A program made the translations under genes and the position numbers. A stretch of DNA of 64,000 nucleotides from an uncultured Eubacteriales bacterium (GTDB taxonomy: Bacteria > Bacillota > Clostridia > Oscillospirales > Oscillospiraceae). How positions within the stretch are numbered: the first letter of the stretch is position 1; each line of letters opens with the position of its first letter. Under the pieces are notes generated by a model. It worked only from the letters and a program-made list of their open reading frames with translations, made no database searches and was not told where the DNA came from. Below, piece after piece: positions 407-8,266 of this stretch. The stretch spans positions 45,925 through 109,924 of the forward strand of contig ONSQ01000008.1 of assembly GCA_900320465.1 (NCBI GenBank), written 5' to 3'.

Positions 407-1531
407 ATGAAAAAGATTCTTGCAATGCTGCTTCTGGTTTGCATGGTTCTGGCCATGGCCGCCTGCGGCCAGCAGGCAGCTCCCGCAGCCGCCCCCGCCG
501 CGGAAGCCGCTCCCGCTGAGGAAGCTGCTCCCGCCGAGGAAGCCGCTCCCGCCGAAGAGGCCGCCCCTGCTGAGGAGGCCGCCCCTGTTGAAGAGGCCGC
601 TCCTGCCGAGTACAAGCTCGGTATGGGTGTTGCCCTGAACATGGACAGCTCCAAGGCCGGCAACGCCCAGGTCGACGCCACTGTCGCCGCCGTCGTTCTC
701 GACGCCGAGGGCAAGATCGTCGCCGCCAAGCTGGACGTGGCCCAGAACAAGATGGACGTCACCGACGGCCAGGTTGATCCCGAGAAGGAATTCCTCTCCA
801 AGGTCGAGCTGGGCGATGACTACAACATGGTCAAGTTCTCTTCCGCCACGCACGAGTGGTACGAGCAGGCCGCCGCGTTCGAGGCCTACGTGATCGGCAA
901 GACCGCCGACGAGGTCAAGGGCATGGAGACCGTTGTCAACGAAGAGGGCCACAGCGTCACCACCGACGAGGAGCTCTTCGCCTCCTGCTCCATTTCCATC
1001 GCTGATTTCCAGGAAGCCATCTTCAAGGCCTGCAACGACGAGCAGAGCCAGTCCTTCATCTCCGACGGCGCTTTCACCCTGGGCGTTGCGGTCAACTCCA
1101 CCGCTGACGAGTCCACTGCCGCCACCGCCGACGAAGAGGGCGTTGTGAAGATGTACACCGACTACGCCGCCGCTGTTGTGGACAGCGAGGGCAAGATCAT
1201 CGCCGCCGTGACCGACGCCACCCAGCCCCAGATCAAGATCGACGCCAACGGCGAGATCGTTGAGACCGTCTTCAAAGGCACCAAGCGTGAGCTGAAGGAA
1301 GACTACAACATGGTCAAGTTCTCCGCCGCCACGCTCGAGTGGTATGAGCAGGCCCAGAACTTTGTCAACTACGTCGCCGGCAAGACCGCTGAAGAGCTGC
1401 GTGCCTCCGAGACCGTCCTCAACGAAGAAGGCCACCAGGTCTTTGCCGATGAGACCCTGTACGCCAGCGTCTCCATCAGCGTTGACGGTATGATCGACGT
1501 CGTTGCCAAGGCTGCTGACAACGCCAAGTAA
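407..1531 (+). CDS. Secreted lipoprotein with two copies of a divergent FMN-binding-like domain
   Basis: The 374-residue product has a signal peptide ending in a lipobox (AMAAC), so it should be lipid-anchored outside the membrane. An Ala/Pro/Glu linker (about residues 25-70) is followed by two homologous domains of roughly 150 residues. Each has a strand-turn-strand segment with GKI and then YNMVKFS-x-AT followed by EWYEQ. The SxAT tetrapeptides, at residues 145-148 and 306-309, resemble ApbE flavinylation sites, but the usual upstream Asp is missing. Start: AGGAG at 395-399 is correctly spaced for ATG 407 but too close to ATG 401. It is first in the apbE-rnf operon, so an extracytoplasmic electron carrier is a reasonable guess. 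I know no named family for it. Confidence 0.8.
   Translation: MKKILAMLLLVCMVLAMAACGQQAAPAAAPAAEAAPAEEAAPAEEAAPAEEAAPAEEAAPVEEAAPAEYKLGMGVALNMDSSKAGNAQVDATVAAVVLDAEGKIVAAKLDVAQNKMDVTDGQVDPEKEFLSKVELGDDYNMVKFSSATHEWYEQAAAFEAYVIGKTADEVKGMETVVNEEGHSVTTDEELFASCSISIADFQEAIFKACNDEQSQSFISDGAFTLGVAVNSTADESTAATADEEGVVKMYTDYAAAVVDSEGKIIAAVTDATQPQIKIDANGEIVETVFKGTKRELKEDYNMVKFSAATLEWYEQAQNFVNYVAGKTAEELRASETVLNEEGHQVFADETLYASVSISVDGMIDVVAKAADNAK
478..612 (+). repeat. In-frame 18-bp repeat encoding the APAEEA linker
   Basis: About six degenerate copies of an 18-base unit encode Ala-Pro-Ala-Glu-Glu-Ala. The stretch separates the lipid anchor from the first domain. Because the unit is a multiple of three, slippage would change linker length without breaking the frame. 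Confidence 0.8.
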
Positions 1532-1552
1532 AAAATCAATATCGCACAGGAG

Positions 1553-2653
1553 ATGAAACCTTTGTGCAGTTTTCGCCGGATCGGGGCGCTGTGTGTCCTG
1601 CTGGCGCTGCTGTCGGCTCTGGCCGGCTGCGGCACGCAGCAGACGGACACGGCCCTGCCGGAGGAGGAAGCGCAGAAGATCGAGCCGAAGGGAAAGGTGT
1701 ACTACGCCTACTTCGACACCGTCTCCTATGTCTATGACTACGCAGGAGATTCGGCAGAACGCTTTGACGAGCGTTCTGCCGAAGTTTCGCATATTCTGTC
1801 GGATTATCACCAGCTCTTCGACATCTATCACGAGTACAGCGGCATGGTGAATCTCTGCACCCTGAACAAAAACGCGGGGGGCGAGGCCATGACCGTCGAT
1901 CCGCGGCTGATGGATTTTCTTCTCTACGCCCGTGAGCTCTGCGAGCTGACCGGCGGCGAGATGAACGTGATGCTCGGCGCGCTGCTCCGCCCCTGGCACG
2001 AATGCCGCGAGGCCGCCGAGAGCGACCCCTCCGGCGCGTCGATCCCCGCGGAGGAGGACCTGATCGAGGCCTTCCGCCACACGGATATCGCACTGCTGGA
2101 GCTGGACGAGGACGCCAATACCGTTCGCATCGCCGACCCGCTGGCCTCCCTGGACGTGGGGGCCCTGGGCAAGGGCTACGCCACCGAGATGGCGGCCAGA
2201 TGGCTGGAGAGCGACGGCGCGCAGGGCTATGTGCTGAACATCGGCGGCAACATCCGCTGCATCGGCACGCGGCCCGACGGCAGCGGATGGGTCACGGCGG
2301 TCCGCAATCCGGATCGCTCCGCCGAGGATTTTGCCCGGCGGCTTCGCATCGCGGACATTTCCTGCGTGACCTCGGGGGTCTACGAGCGCTATTTCACCGT
2401 AAACGGCGTTCGCTATCACCACATCATTGACAAGGACACGCTCTATCCCGCGGCATACTACGATTCGCTGACCGTGCTCTGCCGGGACAGCGGACTGGCG
2501 GACGCGCTGTCCACGGCGCTTTTCTGCATGCCCTATGAGGACAGCCGCGCGCTGGCCGACAGTCTTGAGGGCGTGGAGGTGCTGTGGATCTTCCCCGACG
2601 GCGAGCAGCGCTGTACCGACGGCGTATGGCAAATGACAGAAAATGAAGCATAA
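1553..2653 (+). CDS. apbE: FAD:protein FMN transferase (ApbE)
   Basis: This exported flavin transferase moves FMN from FAD to a Thr or Ser on extracytoplasmic proteins. The lipobox is LAGC with Cys26. The ApbE core is clear: DVGALGKGY near residues 201-209, NIGGNI, TSGVYERYF, the HHIID segment and an Asp-rich metal site around LADALSTALF. Length (366) fits the lipoprotein ApbE branch. Start is uncertain: AGGAG at 1548-1552 abuts ATG 1553 but is nine bases before an in-frame TTG at 1562, which may be the true start. Likely substrates are RnfD and RnfG downstream, possibly the lipoprotein upstream. A perfect 14-bp hairpin lies inside the coding region at 1750-1783. Confidence 0.95.
   Translation: MKPLCSFRRIGALCVLLALLSALAGCGTQQTDTALPEEEAQKIEPKGKVYYAYFDTVSYVYDYAGDSAERFDERSAEVSHILSDYHQLFDIYHEYSGMVNLCTLNKNAGGEAMTVDPRLMDFLLYARELCELTGGEMNVMLGALLRPWHECREAAESDPSGASIPAEEDLIEAFRHTDIALLELDEDANTVRIADPLASLDVGALGKGYATEMAARWLESDGAQGYVLNIGGNIRCIGTRPDGSGWVTAVRNPDRSAEDFARRLRIADISCVTSGVYERYFTVNGVRYHHIIDKDTLYPAAYYDSLTVLCRDSGLADALSTALFCMPYEDSRALADSLEGVEVLWIFPDGEQRCTDGVWQMTENEA
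1750..1783 (+). other. Perfect 14-bp hairpin inside apbE
   Basis: The arms 1750-1763 and 1770-1783 are exact inverted complements with a six-base loop. They encode about residues 66-77 of ApbE, before its catalytic core. No T-run follows, so this is not an ordinary intrinsic terminator. It could be an RNA processing or stabilising element between the lipoprotein message and the downstream genes. Confidence 0.6.
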
Positions 2654-2677
2654 ACCAGTTCAAAGGAGGCGGGTATA

Positions 2678-4012
2678 TTGAGTCTCAGAAAAAAGATTTC
2701 TGCCCTGAAATTACCCCACTACAAAGGCACGGCCGGCATGGCGGCCGTGCGCATGGCGATCCCGAAGGAAGTCGTCCTGCCGATGAACATGCACTCCGGC
2801 CAGGCGGCCGAGCCGATCGTCCAGGTGGGCGATTACGTGACCGTCGGACAGCTGATCGCCCGGGAGGAGGGGCGCAACAGCGCGCCTGTGCACGCGTCGG
2901 TCTCCGGCACCGTCAAGGCCATTGAGCCCTACAGCGCCGGCGGACGCAAGACCACGGCCATCCGCATCGAAAGCGACGGCAAGATGGAAAAGTGCCCCGA
3001 TCTGAAGCTGCCCCAGCCGACGAATCTGGACGAATTCCTGCAGTGCGTGCGCGACAGCGGCGTGGTGGGTCTTGGCGGCGCGGCCTTCCCCGTGTGGGCA
3101 AAGCTGGCCGCGGCACAGAAGAACCACATCCAGACCGTTCTCATCAACGGCGCGGAGTGTGAGCCCTTCATCACCAGCGACCACCGCGTGATGCTGGAGC
3201 ACGGCGATCTGATCGAAAAGGGCATCGCCCTTCTCAAGCAGTTCCTCGGCTCTGAGGAGTATATCATCGGCATCGAGAAGAACAAGCCCGACGCCATCGC
3301 GCAGCTGACCGAGCGCTTTGCCAACGACAGCGCCGTCAAGGTCCTGCCGCTGGAGAGCGTCTATCCCCAGGGTGCCAAGCAGGTGCTGCTCTACAACGCC
3401 ACCGGCAAGGTGGTGGGGCCGGGACAGCGTCTGGCAAGTCTGGGCGTCATCATCATCAACGTGACCTCTCTGGTCAAAACGGCGGAATACTTTACCACCG
3501 GCATGCCGCTGGTGGAGCGCATCGTCACCATCGAGGGCTCCGCTGTCAAGGAGCCCAGGAACCTGATCGTCCCCATCGGCACCTCGATCCGCGACGCGGT
3601 GGAGGCCTGCGGCGGGCTGAAGGAAGAGCCCGGCAAGATCCTCTTCGGCGGCGCCATGATGGGCAAGACCGTGGATACGCTGGACGCCTCGATCCTCAAG
3701 GCCACCAACGCCGTGGTCATCATGAACCGCAAGGACGCCGAGAAGACCAAGCCCTCGCCCTGCATCCACTGCGGGCGCTGCGTGGCGGTCTGCCCCCTGG
3801 GGCTGAACCCCACGGCCTTTGCCCGCGCCATGGAGCTGGAGGACGAGGACGCGCGCGGCGCGCTGCTGCAGAAGGAGCAGGTGTCGCTGTGCATGGAGTG
3901 CGGCTGCTGCAGCTATGTCTGCCCGGCCCACCGTCCCCTGGCCGAAAACAACAGCGCCGCCCGCCGCTTTATCCGCACCTGGGAGAGCGCGAAGAAGGAA
4001 GGAGGGAAATAA
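2678..4012 (+). CDS. rnfC: Rnf-type electron transport complex subunit C
   Basis: RnfC is the cytoplasmic peripheral subunit that binds NAD(H), FMN and two [4Fe-4S] clusters. The Gly-rich flavin/nucleotide motif GLGGAAFP lies near residues 130-137. The cluster motifs are C362-x2-C365-x2-C368-x3-C372-P and C405-x2-C408-x2-C411-x3-C415-P, so all eight ligands are present. The 444-residue length fits the short clostridial form. The start is TTG at 2678, eight bases after AGGAGG (2664-2669). It is followed by rnfD, rnfG, rnfE and rnfA. The usual RnfB partner is absent from the window. Confidence 0.95.
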   Translation: MSLRKKISALKLPHYKGTAGMAAVRMAIPKEVVLPMNMHSGQAAEPIVQVGDYVTVGQLIAREEGRNSAPVHASVSGTVKAIEPYSAGGRKTTAIRIESDGKMEKCPDLKLPQPTNLDEFLQCVRDSGVVGLGGAAFPVWAKLAAAQKNHIQTVLINGAECEPFITSDHRVMLEHGDLIEKGIALLKQFLGSEEYIIGIEKNKPDAIAQLTERFANDSAVKVLPLESVYPQGAKQVLLYNATGKVVGPGQRLASLGVIIINVTSLVKTAEYFTTGMPLVERIVTIEGSAVKEPRNLIVPIGTSIRDAVEACGGLKEEPGKILFGGAMMGKTVDTLDASILKATNAVVIMNRKDAEKTKPSPCIHCGRCVAVCPLGLNPTAFARAMELEDEDARGALLQKEQVSLCMECGCCSYVCPAHRPLAENNSAARRFIRTWESAKKEGGK

Positions 4013-4015
4013 GCC

Positions 4016-4945
4016 GTGGAGAATAAACCCATCATGGCCGCAGGGCCTCATATCCACAGTGCCGACAGCTCGCGCCGGATCATGCTGGACGTGATCATCG
4101 CGCTGCTTCCCGCCTCTGTCGCCGCCGTCGTGCTCTTCGGCATGAAGGCGCTGGCGATGATCTGTGTCTGCGTGATCGCAGCGGTGGTCTCGGAATTTCT
4201 GTTCAATCTGATCGCCCGCCGCGAGCAGAGCGTGGGCGATCTCAGCGCCGTTGTGACGGGCCTGCTGCTGGCGCTCAATCTCTCCACCAACGTGCCGCTG
4301 TGGCAGTGCGCGCTGGGCTCGATCTTCGCGATCGTGCTGGTCAAGTGCGCCTTCGGCGGCATGGGACATAACTTTGCAAACCCGGCCATCACCGCGCGTG
4401 TGTTCCTGTTGATGGCCTTTACCTCCACCGTGGCCGGCGGAGCCCAGCCCATCCTGGTCGACGCCGTCAGCTCCGCCACCCCGCTGGATCTGATCGCCGC
4501 GGGCGGCGAGGGGCTTCCCGGCCTGGGCGCGATGCTGCTGGGTCTGCGGGGCGGCGCCATCGGCGAGGGCTGCATCGTGGCTCTGCTGGCAGGCTTTGCC
4601 TACCTGCTGATCCGCCGCGTGATCCACTGGCAGACGCCGGTGATCTTTATCGCCACCGTGTTTGTCTGCTATCTTGTCGCCTCGGGTGATTTCACCGTCG
4701 CCCTCTACGAGATTCTGGCGGGCGGTCTGGTGCTGGGCGCCGTGTTCATGGCCACCGACTACACCACCACCCCCATCACCGCCGAGGGCCGCTGGCTCTT
4801 TGCGCTGGGCTGCGGACTGCTGACCTTTGTGATCCGCCGCTTCTGCTCTTTCCCCGAGGGCGTTTCCTATTCCATTCTGTGCATGAACATCCTCTCCCCC
4901 TGGCTGGAGAAGTGGACGCGCAGAAAGCCGCTGGGAGGTGTGTGA
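4016..4945 (+). CDS. rnfD: Rnf-type electron transport complex subunit D
   Basis: This is an integral membrane flavoprotein of 309 residues with about eight hydrophobic segments. It carries covalent FMN in the family, and the acceptor motif is intact: DAVSSAT puts the threonine at residue 155, with Asp six positions earlier. Conserved GGMGHNFANPAITAR and TDYTTTP segments are also present. The start is GTG 4016 after an AAGGAGG site. It is three bases downstream of rnfC and one base upstream of rnfG. It should be a substrate of the ApbE encoded upstream. Confidence 0.95.
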   Translation: MENKPIMAAGPHIHSADSSRRIMLDVIIALLPASVAAVVLFGMKALAMICVCVIAAVVSEFLFNLIARREQSVGDLSAVVTGLLLALNLSTNVPLWQCALGSIFAIVLVKCAFGGMGHNFANPAITARVFLLMAFTSTVAGGAQPILVDAVSSATPLDLIAAGGEGLPGLGAMLLGLRGGAIGEGCIVALLAGFAYLLIRRVIHWQTPVIFIATVFVCYLVASGDFTVALYEILAGGLVLGAVFMATDYTTTPITAEGRWLFALGCGLLTFVIRRFCSFPEGVSYSILCMNILSPWLEKWTRRKPLGGV

Positions 4946-4946
4946 T

Positions 4947-6239
4947 ATGAAGAATACTTCGCTTCTTCGCTCCGCCCTGTGCCTGGTGCTGCTCTTCTGT
5001 CTGATGGGCGCGCTGGTCTACGGCGTCAACGGCGTGGCCGCCCCCATCGTGGCGGAAAACGAGCGCCGCGCGGCCGAGGCTGCCGCCGAGGCAGAAAAGG
5101 CTCTTCTGGGCGACAGCGTGCTGCTCTATGACCGCGCCGACCCGGACGCCTCCACCCTGGCGGTGAGCGCCGAGAGCGTGCAGAGCGTCTATCGCGACGA
5201 GACCAAGGGCCAGTATCTGCTCCGTCTCGAAACCAGCGAGGGCTACTCCAAGCTGCCCATCCGTCTGACGCTGACGGTGGACTTTGAGGGCAAGATCGTT
5301 GATCTCACGGTCGAGGAGAACCCGGACGACAAGGAGCTGGGCGAGGACTTCCCCGCCAGCTTTGCCGGCCAGGATTCCACGCTGTCCGGCGTGAATCTGG
5401 TGGCGGGCGTCACCTTCTCGTCCAGCGCGATCCGCGGTGCCGTCAACGACGGCTTCAACGCTCTCATTGAAAACGGCCTCTTCGCCGCGGCGGAGAAGGA
5501 CGATTCCCAGCTTCTCAACGAGCTGATCCCGCTGGTCTACCCCGGTATCGTCAACAAGCCCGGCGTTGTCCAGGGCGAGGAGCTCGCGGGCAGCGGCAAT
5601 GTGGTCTCCGGCTTCAAGGCCGCCAACGGCAGCGGCTTCGTCTGGTTCGTCACCGATAACGGCGCCAACGAGCTGGCCGTGTGGACGGTCCTGGGCGGCA
5701 CGAGGCTCTACAACACCGCCGGCGAGGACGTGACCGCTTCTGCGGACGCCGCTCTGCTTGCGGAGATCGACGCGCTGAGCGCTGAAAACGCGGAGGATCT
5801 GTCCAAGACCTACGAGAAGAACTTCGGCCGTATGCTCGACGAGGGCGCCGAGCTGACGCCGGTTTCGATTCCCGGCCTTGCCAACAGCGTCACTGCGGCC
5901 TACACCGTGCAGGGCGCTGAGGGCACGCTCTATGCCTTTGCCGCGCGTCCCTACGGTTACTCCAACGAGGTCATGCAGCTGTTCTACGTGCTCGATGAGA
6001 CCGGCGCCATCGTCTCCTTCCGCGCCAGCGAGCTGATCCTCCATTCGGATTACTTCAGCAGCTACCAGCTGGACGAGCCCGCCTACAAGGAAGGCTTCCT
6101 TGGTCTGACGGCTGACAGCTACACCGGCGAGCAGGCGCTGATCACCGGCGCCACCATGAGCACCGACGCCGTGGATACCGCCACCGCCGACGTGTTTGCC
6201 GCCTTTGCTCTTCTGACGGAAAATGAGGTGAACGCATGA
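4947..6239 (+). CDS. rnfG: RnfG-like protein with two FMN-binding domains, the first lacking its acceptor Thr
   Basis: RnfG normally has one transmembrane helix and one extracytoplasmic domain with FMN on a threonine, in about 200 residues. This product has 430 residues and two such domains. The first (about 60-185) ends in FSSSAI, where Ile162 stands in the acceptor position. The second (about 300-425) has ITGAT with Thr403 intact. So one covalent FMN is predicted, plus one degenerate module. The true start is ATG 4947, eight bases after GGGAGG (4933-4938); a GTG at 4938 overlaps the ribosome site. The stop overlaps rnfE by four bases. Confidence 0.9.
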   Translation: MKNTSLLRSALCLVLLFCLMGALVYGVNGVAAPIVAENERRAAEAAAEAEKALLGDSVLLYDRADPDASTLAVSAESVQSVYRDETKGQYLLRLETSEGYSKLPIRLTLTVDFEGKIVDLTVEENPDDKELGEDFPASFAGQDSTLSGVNLVAGVTFSSSAIRGAVNDGFNALIENGLFAAAEKDDSQLLNELIPLVYPGIVNKPGVVQGEELAGSGNVVSGFKAANGSGFVWFVTDNGANELAVWTVLGGTRLYNTAGEDVTASADAALLAEIDALSAENAEDLSKTYEKNFGRMLDEGAELTPVSIPGLANSVTAAYTVQGAEGTLYAFAARPYGYSNEVMQLFYVLDETGAIVSFRASELILHSDYFSSYQLDEPAYKEGFLGLTADSYTGEQALITGATMSTDAVDTATADVFAAFALLTENEVNA

Positions 6240-6871
6240 AAAACGATAAACTTCTCTTCCGAAATCCCGCCGCGGTGCTGTTTCTCGGCGCCGCTCCCGC
6301 CTTGGGAGCCAGCACGGACGTGCGCGCGGCTCTGGCCATGAGCGCGGCGGTGCTGGGCGTGCTGCTGTGCTCGTCGCTGCTGCTGGGTCTCATCCGCAAG
6401 CTTCTCCCGCGCGAGGCCTTCCTCGCCGCGGCCATGCTGGTGGTGGCCGGCTTTGCCTCCGCCGCCCAGCTGCTGCTCCAGGCCTTTGTTCCCTCGGTGT
6501 ATGAAATGCTGGGCTTTTACGCCGCCATCCTGGCCGTTGACCTGCTGCTGTTCGCCGGCGCAGAGTGCGCCGAAGAGCAGGGTCTGGGCAAGGCGCTGGT
6601 AAACGCGCTTCTCAGCGGTCTCATTTTCACCGTGTTTGTGCTCCTGCTCGCCGCCATCCGCGAGCTGTTCGGCAGCGCCAGCTTCGACGGGCAGAGCGTG
6701 GAGGCTCTGAAGAACATCCGCATCAACGTCCTCACCCAGGCCTCCGGCGGTCTGATCGTCTTTGCGATCCTGCTCGCCGTCGTCAACGCCCTGTGCCCCG
6801 CCGCCCTCTCTCTGGACAGGCTGAGCTCTCTGGCTGTGGGCTGTGAGGAGAAAGAGGAGGAGGAAGCATGA
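6236..6871 (+). CDS. rnfE: Rnf-type subunit E lacking the FeS-ligand cysteines
   Basis: This 211-residue membrane protein aligns with RnfE/RsxE/NqrD over its length. Recognisable pieces are the N-terminal NPAAVLFLGAAPALGAS and the GAE segment in mid-protein. In classical RnfE the first reads LGLCP and the second TNCxxxGRAE, and the two Cys take part in an intramembrane [2Fe-2S] cluster shared with RnfA. Here those positions are Ala20 and Leu103. The C terminus is a charged tail of Glu residues. It overlaps rnfG and rnfA by four bases each (ATGA), so translation is coupled. Confidence 0.9.
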   Translation: MKNDKLLFRNPAAVLFLGAAPALGASTDVRAALAMSAAVLGVLLCSSLLLGLIRKLLPREAFLAAAMLVVAGFASAAQLLLQAFVPSVYEMLGFYAAILAVDLLLFAGAECAEEQGLGKALVNALLSGLIFTVFVLLLAAIRELFGSASFDGQSVEALKNIRINVLTQASGGLIVFAILLAVVNALCPAALSLDRLSSLAVGCEEKEEEEA

Positions 6872-7401
6872 AAGAAACGATCCTTCTGATTCTCGGCTTT
6901 GTGCTCGTGAACAACTACGCGCTGACGGCCTATCTGGGTCTGACGCCGCTGATCGGCTTTGCCGCGAAGCGCGACAAGATCCTGGTGCTGGGTCTGTCCG
7001 TCACGGGCGTGACGCTGCTGCTGTCCGTGCTGCTGTGGCTGCTGCGCTCTCTCATCCCCGCCTGGCTGCAGCTGCTCGCGGCCGTTGCCATCACCCTGGT
7101 GCTGGTGTGGCTGCTGCAGCTGGCTCTGGGCAAAAAGCTGGGACTTTACTTCCCGGTCATCGCCCTCAACAGCGTGGTGCTGGGCCTTGCGCTCAACACG
7201 ATCGCTGCCGAAGGTCTTCTGACCGTGATTCTCAGCGCCCTGGGCGCCGGTGTGGGCTTCCTCTTCGCGCTGTTTCTGATGAACGGCATCCAGACGCGCA
7301 TCGAGAGCGAGCATCTGCCCCGCGCCTTCCGCGGACTACCGATCCAGTTCCTGGCCGCCGGTATTCTGGCCCTCGCGCTGACCGCCTTTAACTTCCAATG
7401 A
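6868..7401 (+). CDS. rnfA: Rnf-type subunit A lacking the FeS-ligand cysteines
   Basis: This 177-residue, roughly six-helix protein is clearly RnfA: it has LVNNYALTAYLG near the N terminus and LPRAFRGLPIQF near the C terminus. Classical RnfA has LGLCP and TTNCAVLG, whose Cys complete the [2Fe-2S] site at the RnfA-RnfE interface. Here they are Thr26 (LGLTP) and Ser102 (ALNSVVLG). With the matching changes in RnfE, all four ligands are gone. The next gene begins inside its last codons, and it is not rnfB. Confidence 0.92.
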   Translation: MKETILLILGFVLVNNYALTAYLGLTPLIGFAAKRDKILVLGLSVTGVTLLLSVLLWLLRSLIPAWLQLLAAVAITLVLVWLLQLALGKKLGLYFPVIALNSVVLGLALNTIAAEGLLTVILSALGAGVGFLFALFLMNGIQTRIESEHLPRAFRGLPIQFLAAGILALALTAFNFQ

Positions 7402-7787
7402 AAGGCAAGCCTGCTGCCGGGCATCTGCGCGCCGACCTGCTTGTGATCGGCGGGCTGCTGCTCCTGTCCCTGGTGCTCTACCTCGCGTTCCATCTGGGGC
7501 GCGAGGAGGGCGGCTGGGCCGTGGTGCGCATTGACGGCCTCGAGGTGGAGCGCCACGCGCTGTCCGTCGACGGGAGCTATTCACTCAACGGCGGCACCAA
7601 TCTGCTGGTCATCGAGAATGGCCGCGCCTATCTCAGCTACGCCGACTGTCCCGATCAGATCTGCGTCAAGCACGCCCCTGTTCGCTACACCCACGAGGTC
7701 ATCACCTGTCTGCCCAACCGTCTGACCGTCACCGTCGAGGGCGGCGAGAGCAACGGCGTGGACTTCACCGTCGGAGGCATCGGATGA
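7398..7787 (+). CDS. NusG domain II membrane protein (EetA-like)
   Basis: The 129-residue protein has one N-terminal transmembrane helix (about 12-32) and an extracytoplasmic NusG-II domain. The typical pattern ADCPDQIC, then a second Cys in TCLPNRL, is present. Proteins of this family sit beside Gx-transporter proteins, and to my recollection EetA of Gram-positive flavin-based extracellular electron transfer loci belongs to it. It overlaps rnfA by four bases and the next gene by four bases, so it is an integral part of the operon. Its biochemical role is not known. Confidence 0.85.
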   Translation: MKGKPAAGHLRADLLVIGGLLLLSLVLYLAFHLGREEGGWAVVRIDGLEVERHALSVDGSYSLNGGTNLLVIENGRAYLSYADCPDQICVKHAPVRYTHEVITCLPNRLTVTVEGGESNGVDFTVGGIG

Positions 7788-8266
7788 AAACCAGACGAAT
7801 CACCATCATGGCCATGTGCGTGGCGCTGGCGATGATCCTGTCCTATGTGGAGAGCATGATCCCCTCCCCCGGCATCCCGGGCGTCAAGCTGGGGCTTGCC
7901 AACATCGTGGTGGTCTTCGCCCTCTACAAGCTGGGCTGGAAAGAGGCCGTCGGCATTTCGCTGCTGCGCGTATTTCTGGTCTCGCTGCTCTTCGGCCACG
8001 CGGCCAGTCTGATGTACAGCGCCTCCGGCGCGGTGCTGAGTCTGGCGGGCATGATCCTGCTGAAGAAGAGCGACAAGCTCAGCTGCGTCGCCGTCAGCGT
8101 GCTGGGAGGCGTGCTGCATAACGCGGGCCAGATTCTGATGGCCGTGGTGCTGATGGGACACAACGTGGTGTATTATCTGCCCGTGCTGATCCTCAGCGGC
8201 ACCGTGGCCGGCATCGGCATCGGTCTGGTGGCGGCCATCCTGGTCCGGCGCATCCCGACAGAATAA
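7784..8266 (+). CDS. Gx transporter family membrane protein (EetB-like; formerly HepT component I)
   Basis: The 160-residue protein has about five transmembrane helices and the family pattern VKLGLANIVVVFALYKLG near residues 35-52. Such proteins are often annotated as heptaprenyl diphosphate synthase component I, but no synthase partner is present here. As I recall, EetB of extracellular electron transfer loci belongs to this family. It is the last gene of the rnf-like operon and is followed by a strong terminator. Confidence 0.85.
   Translation: MKTRRITIMAMCVALAMILSYVESMIPSPGIPGVKLGLANIVVVFALYKLGWKEAVGISLLRVFLVSLLFGHAASLMYSASGAVLSLAGMILLKKSDKLSCVAVSVLGGVLHNAGQILMAVVLMGHNVVYYLPVLILSGTVAGIGIGLVAAILVRRIPTE

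Follow-up and report, generated by a model that had tools for sequence, protein, structure and literature searches.

An altered Rnf cassette without RnfB and without intramembrane cluster ligands in uncultured bacteria, apparently Clostridia, that probably directs electrons from NADH out of the cell through flavins

A group of uncultured bacteria, apparently Clostridia, carries a second, altered version of the Rnf membrane electron-transfer complex that has lost the ferredoxin-oxidising RnfB subunit and the cysteine ligands of the intramembrane cluster, and that probably passes electrons from NADH one way out of the cell through flavins. The cassette was examined in a window of 64,000 nucleotides (contig ONSQ01000008.1, positions 45,925 to 109,924), in which RnfC-D-G-E-A is encoded on the forward strand at positions 2678-7401. 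The original prediction that this set lacks rnfB and that all four ligand cysteines of RnfA and RnfE are replaced is correct to the residue, although its interval, 4016-7401, leaves out RnfC and an upstream lipoprotein and ApbE gene that belong to the operon. Its interpretation is partly supported: a coherent, rewired complex rather than a decaying one is borne out, but RnfB is not lost from the organism, the flavin sites are kept only in part, and the two genes that follow, regarded as non-Rnf, are not unrelated to the complex.

The operon consists of nine genes, all on the forward strand. The first (401-1531) codes for a secreted lipoprotein with two internal repeats, which has no Pfam or NCBIfam match and carries the acceptor-like motifs ASCS and ASVS instead of SGAT. 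It is followed by an ApbE/FmnB-type FAD:protein FMN transferase (1553-2653; PF02424, E 1.7e-59) and by RnfC (2678-4012; PF01512, PF13375 and Fer4; TIGR01945, 412.7 bits over a cut-off of 245.95), which keeps the NAD(H)/FMN domain, the SLBB domain and the two [4Fe-4S] motifs with their eight cysteines. RnfD, the membrane flavin subunit (4016-4945; PF03116, E 1.1e-101; TIGR01946, 269.7 over 207.05), aligns with the classical copy of the same genome so as to place the FMN-attachment threonine at Thr155 (4478-4480) within SSATP; the classical RnfD reads TMAT where the cassette reads SSAT, so only the Ala-Thr is telling. RnfG (4938-6239) is enlarged to a two-domain protein of 433 aa with one N-terminal helix and a PF04205 match at residues 105-172. 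Its first domain bears the non-canonical motif AGVT (5403-5414), whose acceptor Thr159 is invariant in 25 sequences, and its second the canonical TGAT (6144-6155), whose A405 and T406 are likewise invariant in 25 sequences. An AF2 model of RnfG (pLDDT 82.4) gave one PDB match at E<=0.001 and its five best matches are RnfG chains, which supports at least one RnfG-like domain, while the second domain rests on motif and alignment.

RnfE (6236-6871) and RnfA (6868-7401) match the broader PF02508 family but fall far below the specific cut-offs, with 88.4 bits against 213.4 for TIGR01948 and 94 against 229.3 for TIGR01943, respectively. Alignment with the genome's own classical RnfE and RnfA and with relatives places Ala20 (6293-6295) and Leu103 (6542-6544) of RnfE, and Thr26 (6943-6945) and Ser102 (7171-7173) of RnfA, at the ligand positions, and alignments of the cassette profiles to the solved Rnf and Nqr chains 9eri, 7zc6, 8ahx and 7xk3 put the same columns opposite their cysteines. 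Replacement of the ligands by other cysteines is excluded for the window RnfA, which contains none; among the 42 cassette rows, no other cysteine column is shared by more than 18 in RnfE or by more than 13 in RnfA. Downstream lie a NusG domain II protein, EetA-type by position and family (7398-7787; PF07009, E 5.5e-23), and an EetB-type ECF-S protein (7784-8266; PF07456, Hpre_diP_synt_I, E 1e-40) that likely exports FAD for ApbE, in line with the function and family described for EetB (PMC9973259). No RnfB lies between or after these genes, and no NqrF-type input subunit (FAD, [2Fe-2S]) was found among the operon and the next genes.

The operon recurs in at least 41 of 101 genomes of the genus and in one of a sister genus. 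In 42 of 42 distinct cassette loci, no RnfB was found in the operon and at most one of the four ligand cysteines is left (none in the window and in 26 of the 41 others, one in 15 of 41), which is more than chance when set against four of four cysteines, with RnfB present, in 27 of 27 classical loci read alongside. Moreover, a phylum search gave 29 loci besides the window, four of them the same genes as four of the 27, in which RnfA has both cysteines and is followed by RnfB in 29 of 29, and RnfE has both cysteines in the 28 that include it. The gene-order, family and phylum searches covered 30 loci each, out of 160, 327 and 209 matching genomes, respectively, so that divergent cluster-less copies elsewhere are not excluded. 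The scan for close relatives in named genomes gave one contig (locus L068), and locus L178 was dropped as it was taken to be the same contig, with equal length (150,904) and equal protein lengths. Ferredoxin-type genes near three cassettes (loci L069, L072 and L074) are weak matches to the RnfB model that lie apart from the operon, and a PF04060 search of those genomes found nothing at those places. Cassette C, D, E and A each form one clade (39/39, 40/40, 42/42 and 42/42) among Clostridia-type rnf, with supports of 0.81, 0.95, 0.97 and 0.54, respectively, so that the monophyly of A alone is weak, whereas the concatenated tree recovers the cassette clade for 41 of 41 with a support of 74.

RnfC cluster and FMN/NAD motifs are kept in 37 of 37 RnfC longer than 380 aa, and the ATP[LM] motif in 38 of 38 RnfD longer than 280 aa. 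In 16 cassette pairs, not all independent, dN/dS is 0.06-0.43 for E and 0.05-0.39 for A, and 0.02-0.31 for C in 15 pairs, while in the two of three classical pairs usable for these subunits it is 0.04-0.05 for E and 0.04-0.06 for A. Thus, A and E are under purifying selection, but are less constrained than when they carry electrons. This relaxation, together with the complete second set in the same genome, could be taken as ordinary decay of a redundant duplicate, but this reading is very unlikely and already contradicted by the open frames and the same gene order over a clade reaching down to 34% RnfA identity to the window, by the purifying selection, and by the presence of the cassette as the only set in one relative.

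An RnfB of the cassette that is merely split off from the operon was rejected, since the rnfB found in the genome belongs to a separate and complete classical rnfCDGEAB on another contig (C71) with all four cysteines. The cassette C/D/G subunits might borrow RnfA/E/B from the classical set, leaving cassette A and E as non-functional passengers. In favour of this, 38 of 41 cassette-bearing genus genomes have a full-length second RnfA match in the classical score range, one more (G975) has a contig-end fragment, and A and E have the highest median dN/dS of the five subunits; a further genome of the genus search, G1027, gave only partial, unresolved hits. Conversely, two genomes, G545 (95% complete) and G1005 (84% complete), carry the cassette with no second RnfA match and no PF04060 match, G545 having two PF02508 proteins, both of the cassette, and the dN/dS of A and E stays at or below 0.43. 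An accessory role is improbable, although the independence of the cassette rests on these two genomes.

The lipoprotein, ApbE and EetA/EetB point to flavin-based extracytosolic electron transfer. The locus of Listeria and relatives comprises Ndh2, DmkA/B, EetA, EetB, FmnA, FmnB and PplA; the cassette shares with it FmnB/ApbE, EetA and EetB, while Ndh2, polyprenyl synthase and UbiA are absent from the operon and RnfCDGEA takes their place. Relatives of the lipoprotein, ApbE, EetA and EetB lie in one row with Ndh2, polyprenyl synthase and UbiA at loci L109, L110 and L113, all seven genes having been Pfam-checked or scanned only for L113. The lipoprotein is of the same family as those of Ndh2-type loci, a comparison that did not include Listeria PplA itself and in which the flavinylation motifs are non-canonical. 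Its profile matched in 41 of 391 genomes of the class, own included, 16 others spanning 300 or more of 362 positions, but the family is not confined to such loci, since three of nine neighbourhoods laid out (L108, L112 and L114) show only lipoprotein and ApbE. An AF2 model of the lipoprotein (pLDDT 75.4) found no PDB match at E<=0.001, and a profile search gave only a weak match to 2kzx (E 0.0039). As the lipoprotein and the first RnfG domain also lack the canonical [S/T]GA[S/T] motif, their flavinylation is uncertain. EetA/EetB also sit beside classical Rnf sets, in 5 of the 27 classical loci, and EetB occurs with Rnf in 572 Clostridia genomes (PMC9973259). No UbiA quinone prenyltransferase was found above the cut-off in 10 of 10 genus genomes, with one sub-cut-off match, the control giving 14 of 14.

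The explanation favoured here, with moderate confidence, is that the cassette is a neofunctionalised Rnf duplicate that works as a one-way, quinone-free NADH:extracytosolic-flavin oxidoreductase built from the output half of Rnf. In solved Rnf, the RnfB-RnfAE half and the RnfD-RnfC half are separate paths meeting at RnfG (PMC9588780, PMC12174285). In this view, RnfC (FMN, two [4Fe-4S]) would oxidise NADH, RnfD (riboflavin, Thr-linked FMN) would carry the electrons across the membrane, and the two-domain RnfG would receive them outside and hand them to the lipoprotein and other flavin proteins, with ApbE attaching the flavins and the EetA/EetB pair supplying FAD outside. Removal of the input half (ferredoxin, RnfB and the RnfA/E cluster) would stop the electron loop back to the cytosol, and RnfA and RnfE would stay as structural partners of D and G, although why both are kept, if they carry no electrons, is not explained. 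The complex would do the job that Ndh2 plus demethylmenaquinone does in Listeria-type transfer. The gene content, the ligand loss, the retained RnfC/D/G motifs, the single cassette clade, the purifying selection, the absence of RnfB from the operon and the lack of a UbiA hit come from the analysis itself, whereas the direction of flow, its coupling, the C-D-G route, the cofactors themselves, the scaffold role of A and E, the acceptors and their reduction outside the cell are inferred without biochemical data. Flavin-linked reductases, including an FMN_bind-NrfA fusion, are candidate acceptors, but they do not track the cassette: the fusion was found in 4 of 6 cassette-bearing and 1 of 4 cassette-free genomes, a count in which not every FMN_bind protein of two genomes (G483 and G516) was domain-checked.

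Alternatively, the same path may still pump Na+ or H+ through RnfD or through the RnfA/E hourglass, so that NADH oxidation by an outside acceptor charges the membrane without the intramembrane cluster. RnfD, called the Na+-translocating subunit (PMC9588780), has the lowest dN/dS after RnfC (medians: C 0.08, D 0.15, G 0.16, A 0.20, E 0.21), and A and E are retained in every cassette read; however, in the Nqr work cited in PMC9588780, Na+ uptake is coupled to electron transfer from a [2Fe-2S] cluster to FMN, a step for which A and E here have no ligands, and this possibility is regarded as doubtful. A still bolder and rather unlikely form is a quinone-free respiration in which NADH oxidised by RnfC is wired through RnfD and the two-domain RnfG straight to flavinylated surface proteins and to an FMN_bind-NrfA nitrite reductase, with ion pumping still done by RnfD although the intramembrane [2Fe-2S] cluster, described as strictly conserved in Rnf and Nqr, would be gone. 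Electron uptake, from extracellular reduced flavins through G and D to RnfC and NAD+, is conceivable because RnfC normally passes electrons from RnfD riboflavin to NAD+ in the forward direction (PMC12174285), but it appears improbable, as the lipoprotein/ApbE/EetAB context and the FMN_bind reductases in the genomes suggest outward flow.

The cassette shares with the classical Rnf complex five of six subunits in the same C-D-G-E-A order, and differs from it in the missing RnfB, the missing A/E ligands and the two-domain RnfG. A one-way path from NAD(P)H to an extracytosolic FMN-binding protein through an NqrB/RnfD-type membrane protein has been proposed for NQR/RNF-like systems (PMC8238504, PMC11334425). 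However, those are two-subunit systems with RnfD fused to an NqrF-type NAD domain, defined by one protein with PF03116 and PF00175 (PMC8238504), and with no flavinylation threonine in the membrane subunit, whereas here RnfD matches PF03116 only and keeps its threonine, RnfC is the NAD(H) subunit, and A and E are retained. Na+-NQR is likewise held to be an rnf duplicate that lost rnfB (PMC4014512), but it gained NqrF and kept the A/E (NqrE/D) cysteines, as the 7xk3 alignments show, while NqrA lost the RnfC cofactor sites (PMC4014512); this cassette did the opposite.

The cofactors of A/E, D and G are described as strictly conserved between Rnf and Nqr (PMC12174285). A natural lineage that dropped the A/E ligands together with RnfB, while keeping the RnfC/D flavin half, separates the two electron paths of Rnf by evolution and offers a direct test of what A and E do without a cluster and whether RnfD alone can couple electron flow to ions. 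Surveys that define Rnf by RnfB, or one-way variants by an RnfD-NqrF fusion, would not count it (PMC8238504). Lastly, the cassette suggests how Clostridia in which no quinone synthesis was found could send electrons outside.

On the plus strand of the window, nine genes with short or overlapping junctions code for a lipoprotein (401-1531), ApbE (1553-2653), RnfC (2678-4012), RnfD (4016-4945), RnfG (4938-6239), RnfE (6236-6871), RnfA (6868-7401), a NusG domain II protein of the EetA type (7398-7787), and a PF07456 protein of the EetB type (7784-8266), while the next gene, coding for a cation-efflux protein, lies on the other strand. No RnfB is encoded in this array. The observation at the origin of this analysis, namely that the classical cysteines are replaced in RnfA and RnfE, is confirmed to the residue: in the alignment with the classical RnfE and RnfA of the same genome, the ligand columns are occupied by Ala20 and Leu103 in RnfE and by Thr26 and Ser102 in RnfA. 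Alignments to the solved Rnf and Nqr chains 9eri, 7zc6, 8ahx, and 7xk3 agree with this assignment, and the four invariant cysteines are named in the description of the Clostridium tetanomorphum structure (RnfA 25 and 113, RnfE 26 and 109; PMC9588780).

The locus (contig C49, positions 45925-109924) belongs to a draft genome of 2.36 Mb, 80% complete and split into 148 contigs, in which PF02508 identifies four proteins, that is, the two of the window and a classical pair on contig C71. The latter contig holds rnfCDGEAB in full, with all four cysteines, and the only PF04060 match of the genome. In the original prediction, the joint absence of rnfB and of the ligands suggested a coherent, rewired complex rather than decay; this reading is supported, but RnfB is not lost from the organism and belongs to another complete set.

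The distribution of the cluster-less cassette was assessed at several taxonomic levels. In the order (197 genomes, 160 with a match, of which 30 loci were retrieved), the 29 RnfA loci other than the window were all classical. In the family (400 genomes, 327 with a match, 30 loci retrieved), cluster-less pairs were present in five further genomes of the genus and in one genome of another genus (G243), whereas the other 23 loci were classical. A profile search of 101 genomes of the genus returned a match in 98, and reading of the loci with non-classical scores shows the cluster-less cassette in at least 41 of the 101, including the genome of the window; together with G243, these make 42 distinct loci. 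Conversely, a search of the phylum (398 genomes, 209 with a match, 30 loci retrieved, one of them being the window) returned only classical top hits, with both cysteines in RnfA and an RnfB in 29 of 29 and both cysteines in RnfE in the 28 loci that include it, although cluster-less copies elsewhere among the less similar matches, which lie beyond the loci read, are not excluded.

The order lipoprotein-ApbE-C-D-G-E-A-EetA-EetB recurs among the relatives, with some ends cut by contigs and with EetA or EetB not detected in a minority. Over the 42 loci, the first ligand position of RnfE is C in 15, A in 13, V in 10, I in 2, G in 1, and F in 1, and the second is L in 38, M in 3, and A in 1; in RnfA, the first position is T in 29, V in 4, S in 3, A in 3, D in 2, and G in 1, and the second is S in 37, A in 3, G in 1, and T in 1. 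No locus keeps more than one of the four cysteines, whereas 27 of 27 classical loci keep all four, with RnfB in the operon. Among the classical sets, a second type, found in six genomes (loci L214-L219, from G571, G483, G974, G971, G1008, and G1032), has C, D, E, A, and B, but its RnfG was not recognized by the RnfG model used; in G571 and G483, the open frame at the FMN_bind match is 516 aa. In the cassettes, RnfC keeps both CxxCxxCxxxCP motifs and the GGA-P, AECEP, and YPQGA motifs in 37 of 37 proteins longer than 380 aa, and RnfD keeps ATP[LM] in 38 of 38 proteins longer than 280 aa, as SSATPL in the window and MATPM in the classical copy. RnfG consists of two parts, specifically a first domain that matches PF04205 and bears AGVT at the usual site and a second one that ends in TGAT; the acceptor Thr of both is invariant in 25 aligned RnfG sequences. 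The predicted structure of RnfG (pLDDT 82.4) has five RnfG chains as its best PDB matches, one of them below E 0.001.

Separate trees of C, D, E, and A, built with 27 classical loci and E. coli as the outgroup, each place all the cassette rows in one clade among the classical Rnf sampled, although the support for A is weak. Pairwise dN/dS in 16 cassette pairs is 0.06-0.43 for E and 0.05-0.39 for A, while, of three classical pairs, two are usable and give 0.04-0.06. The cassette subunits are thus constrained, but A and E less than in those classical sets, as expected if they no longer hold a redox center.

INDEPENDENCE. The genome G545 (95% complete) has two PF02508 proteins, both of the cassette, and no PF04060 match, and G1005 (84% complete) has only the cassette RnfA match and, likewise, no PF04060. 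Of the other 39 cassette-bearing genomes of the genus, 38 show a full-length second RnfA match in the classical score range, most of these being assigned from the match without reading of the copy, and one (G975) shows a contig-end fragment. The altered set therefore does not seem to need a classical partner, but this inference rests on two draft genomes.

In the titles, abstract starts, and passages seen in searches of the open-access literature, which do not extend to subscription papers and supplements, no Rnf set lacking both RnfB and the A/E cysteines was found; related works (PMC7074142, PMC4014512, PMC10608574, and PMC11323493) were also considered. Meheust et al. define Rnf by RnfB and the NQR/RNF-like type by an RnfD-NqrF fusion (PMC8238504), so that this cassette falls between their classes.

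The accessory genes point to a link of the cassette with flavin-based EET. The lipoprotein has no Pfam match, but its profile matches in 41 of 391 genomes of the class, its own included; 16 others span 300 or more of 362 positions, and the rest are shorter or broken matches. In 20 neighborhoods retrieved, BLAST against the cassette and classical proteins shows no Rnf gene apart from one weak ferredoxin-type match. Of nine neighborhoods examined gene by gene, three (L109, L110, and L113) show Ndh2, polyprenyl synthase, UbiA, EetA, EetB, lipoprotein, and ApbE in a row, three (L106, L120, and L121) show parts of it, and three (L108, L112, and L114) show only lipoprotein and ApbE; these assignments rely on a Pfam scan of all seven genes for L113 and of Ndh2 and the lipoprotein for L106, and on sequence judgment for the others. 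The lipoproteins of this family outside the cassette (L105-L114, L116, and L121) carry SSVT-like motifs instead of the canonical [S/T]GA[S/T] flavinylation motif, at the place where the window has ASCS and ASVS, and the three that were scanned have no Pfam match. In one cassette (L182, genome G989), the lipoprotein is 657 aa long with four motif copies instead of two, an apparent internal duplication. EetB is an FAD-export ECF-S protein in Listeria, and EetB genes also sit beside Rnf in 572 Clostridia genomes (PMC9973259). UbiA-family prenyltransferases are needed for menaquinone-type quinones. No such enzyme was found above the cut-off in 10 of 10 genomes of the genus, one of which has a weak match, while all 14 control genomes have them. 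The cassette thus combines outer parts of an EET locus with an Rnf-derived core where Ndh2 and quinone would be.

Possible acceptors were sought in the same genomes. The genome of the window has, on contig C97 (2825-6612 of locus L246), an FMN_bind domain with an SGAT motif fused to a cytochrome c552/NrfA-type nitrite reductase and followed by ResB and a cytochrome c assembly gene; a literature search on this topic listed no paper that is evidently about such a fusion. The fusion also occurs in G545, G200, and G296, which have the cassette, and in G358, which does not. G571 has two FMN_bind-FAD_binding_2 proteins instead, in a comparison of domains that left out similar-length proteins of G483 and two FMN_bind proteins of G516, and the overall picture is suggestive only. 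On contig C32 of G571, which carries a classical rnf set, a 691-aa protein (1186-3261 of locus L252) has an apparent twin-arginine start, FMN_bind (TGAT), and FAD_binding_2.

In solved Rnf, electrons go from RnfB through the A/E cluster to RnfG outside and back through RnfD to RnfC and NAD (PMC9588780, PMC12174285). While the gene content, the ligand residues, and the retained motifs are read directly from the sequences, the mechanism of the cassette, including the direction of electron flow, the identity of the acceptor, and the role of A and E, is inferred from gene content and known structures. The retention of A and E remains unexplained, and the simplest view is that they serve as a scaffold for D and the RnfG helix. 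One-way use has been proposed by others for a different, two-subunit NQR/RNF-like design (PMC8238504, PMC11334425). For the cassette, the inference is that it has lost exactly the first path of solved Rnf, from RnfB through the A/E cluster to RnfG, and that what remains, if run from NADH, would lead outward through RnfC, RnfD, and RnfG, and then to the lipoprotein or other flavin proteins.
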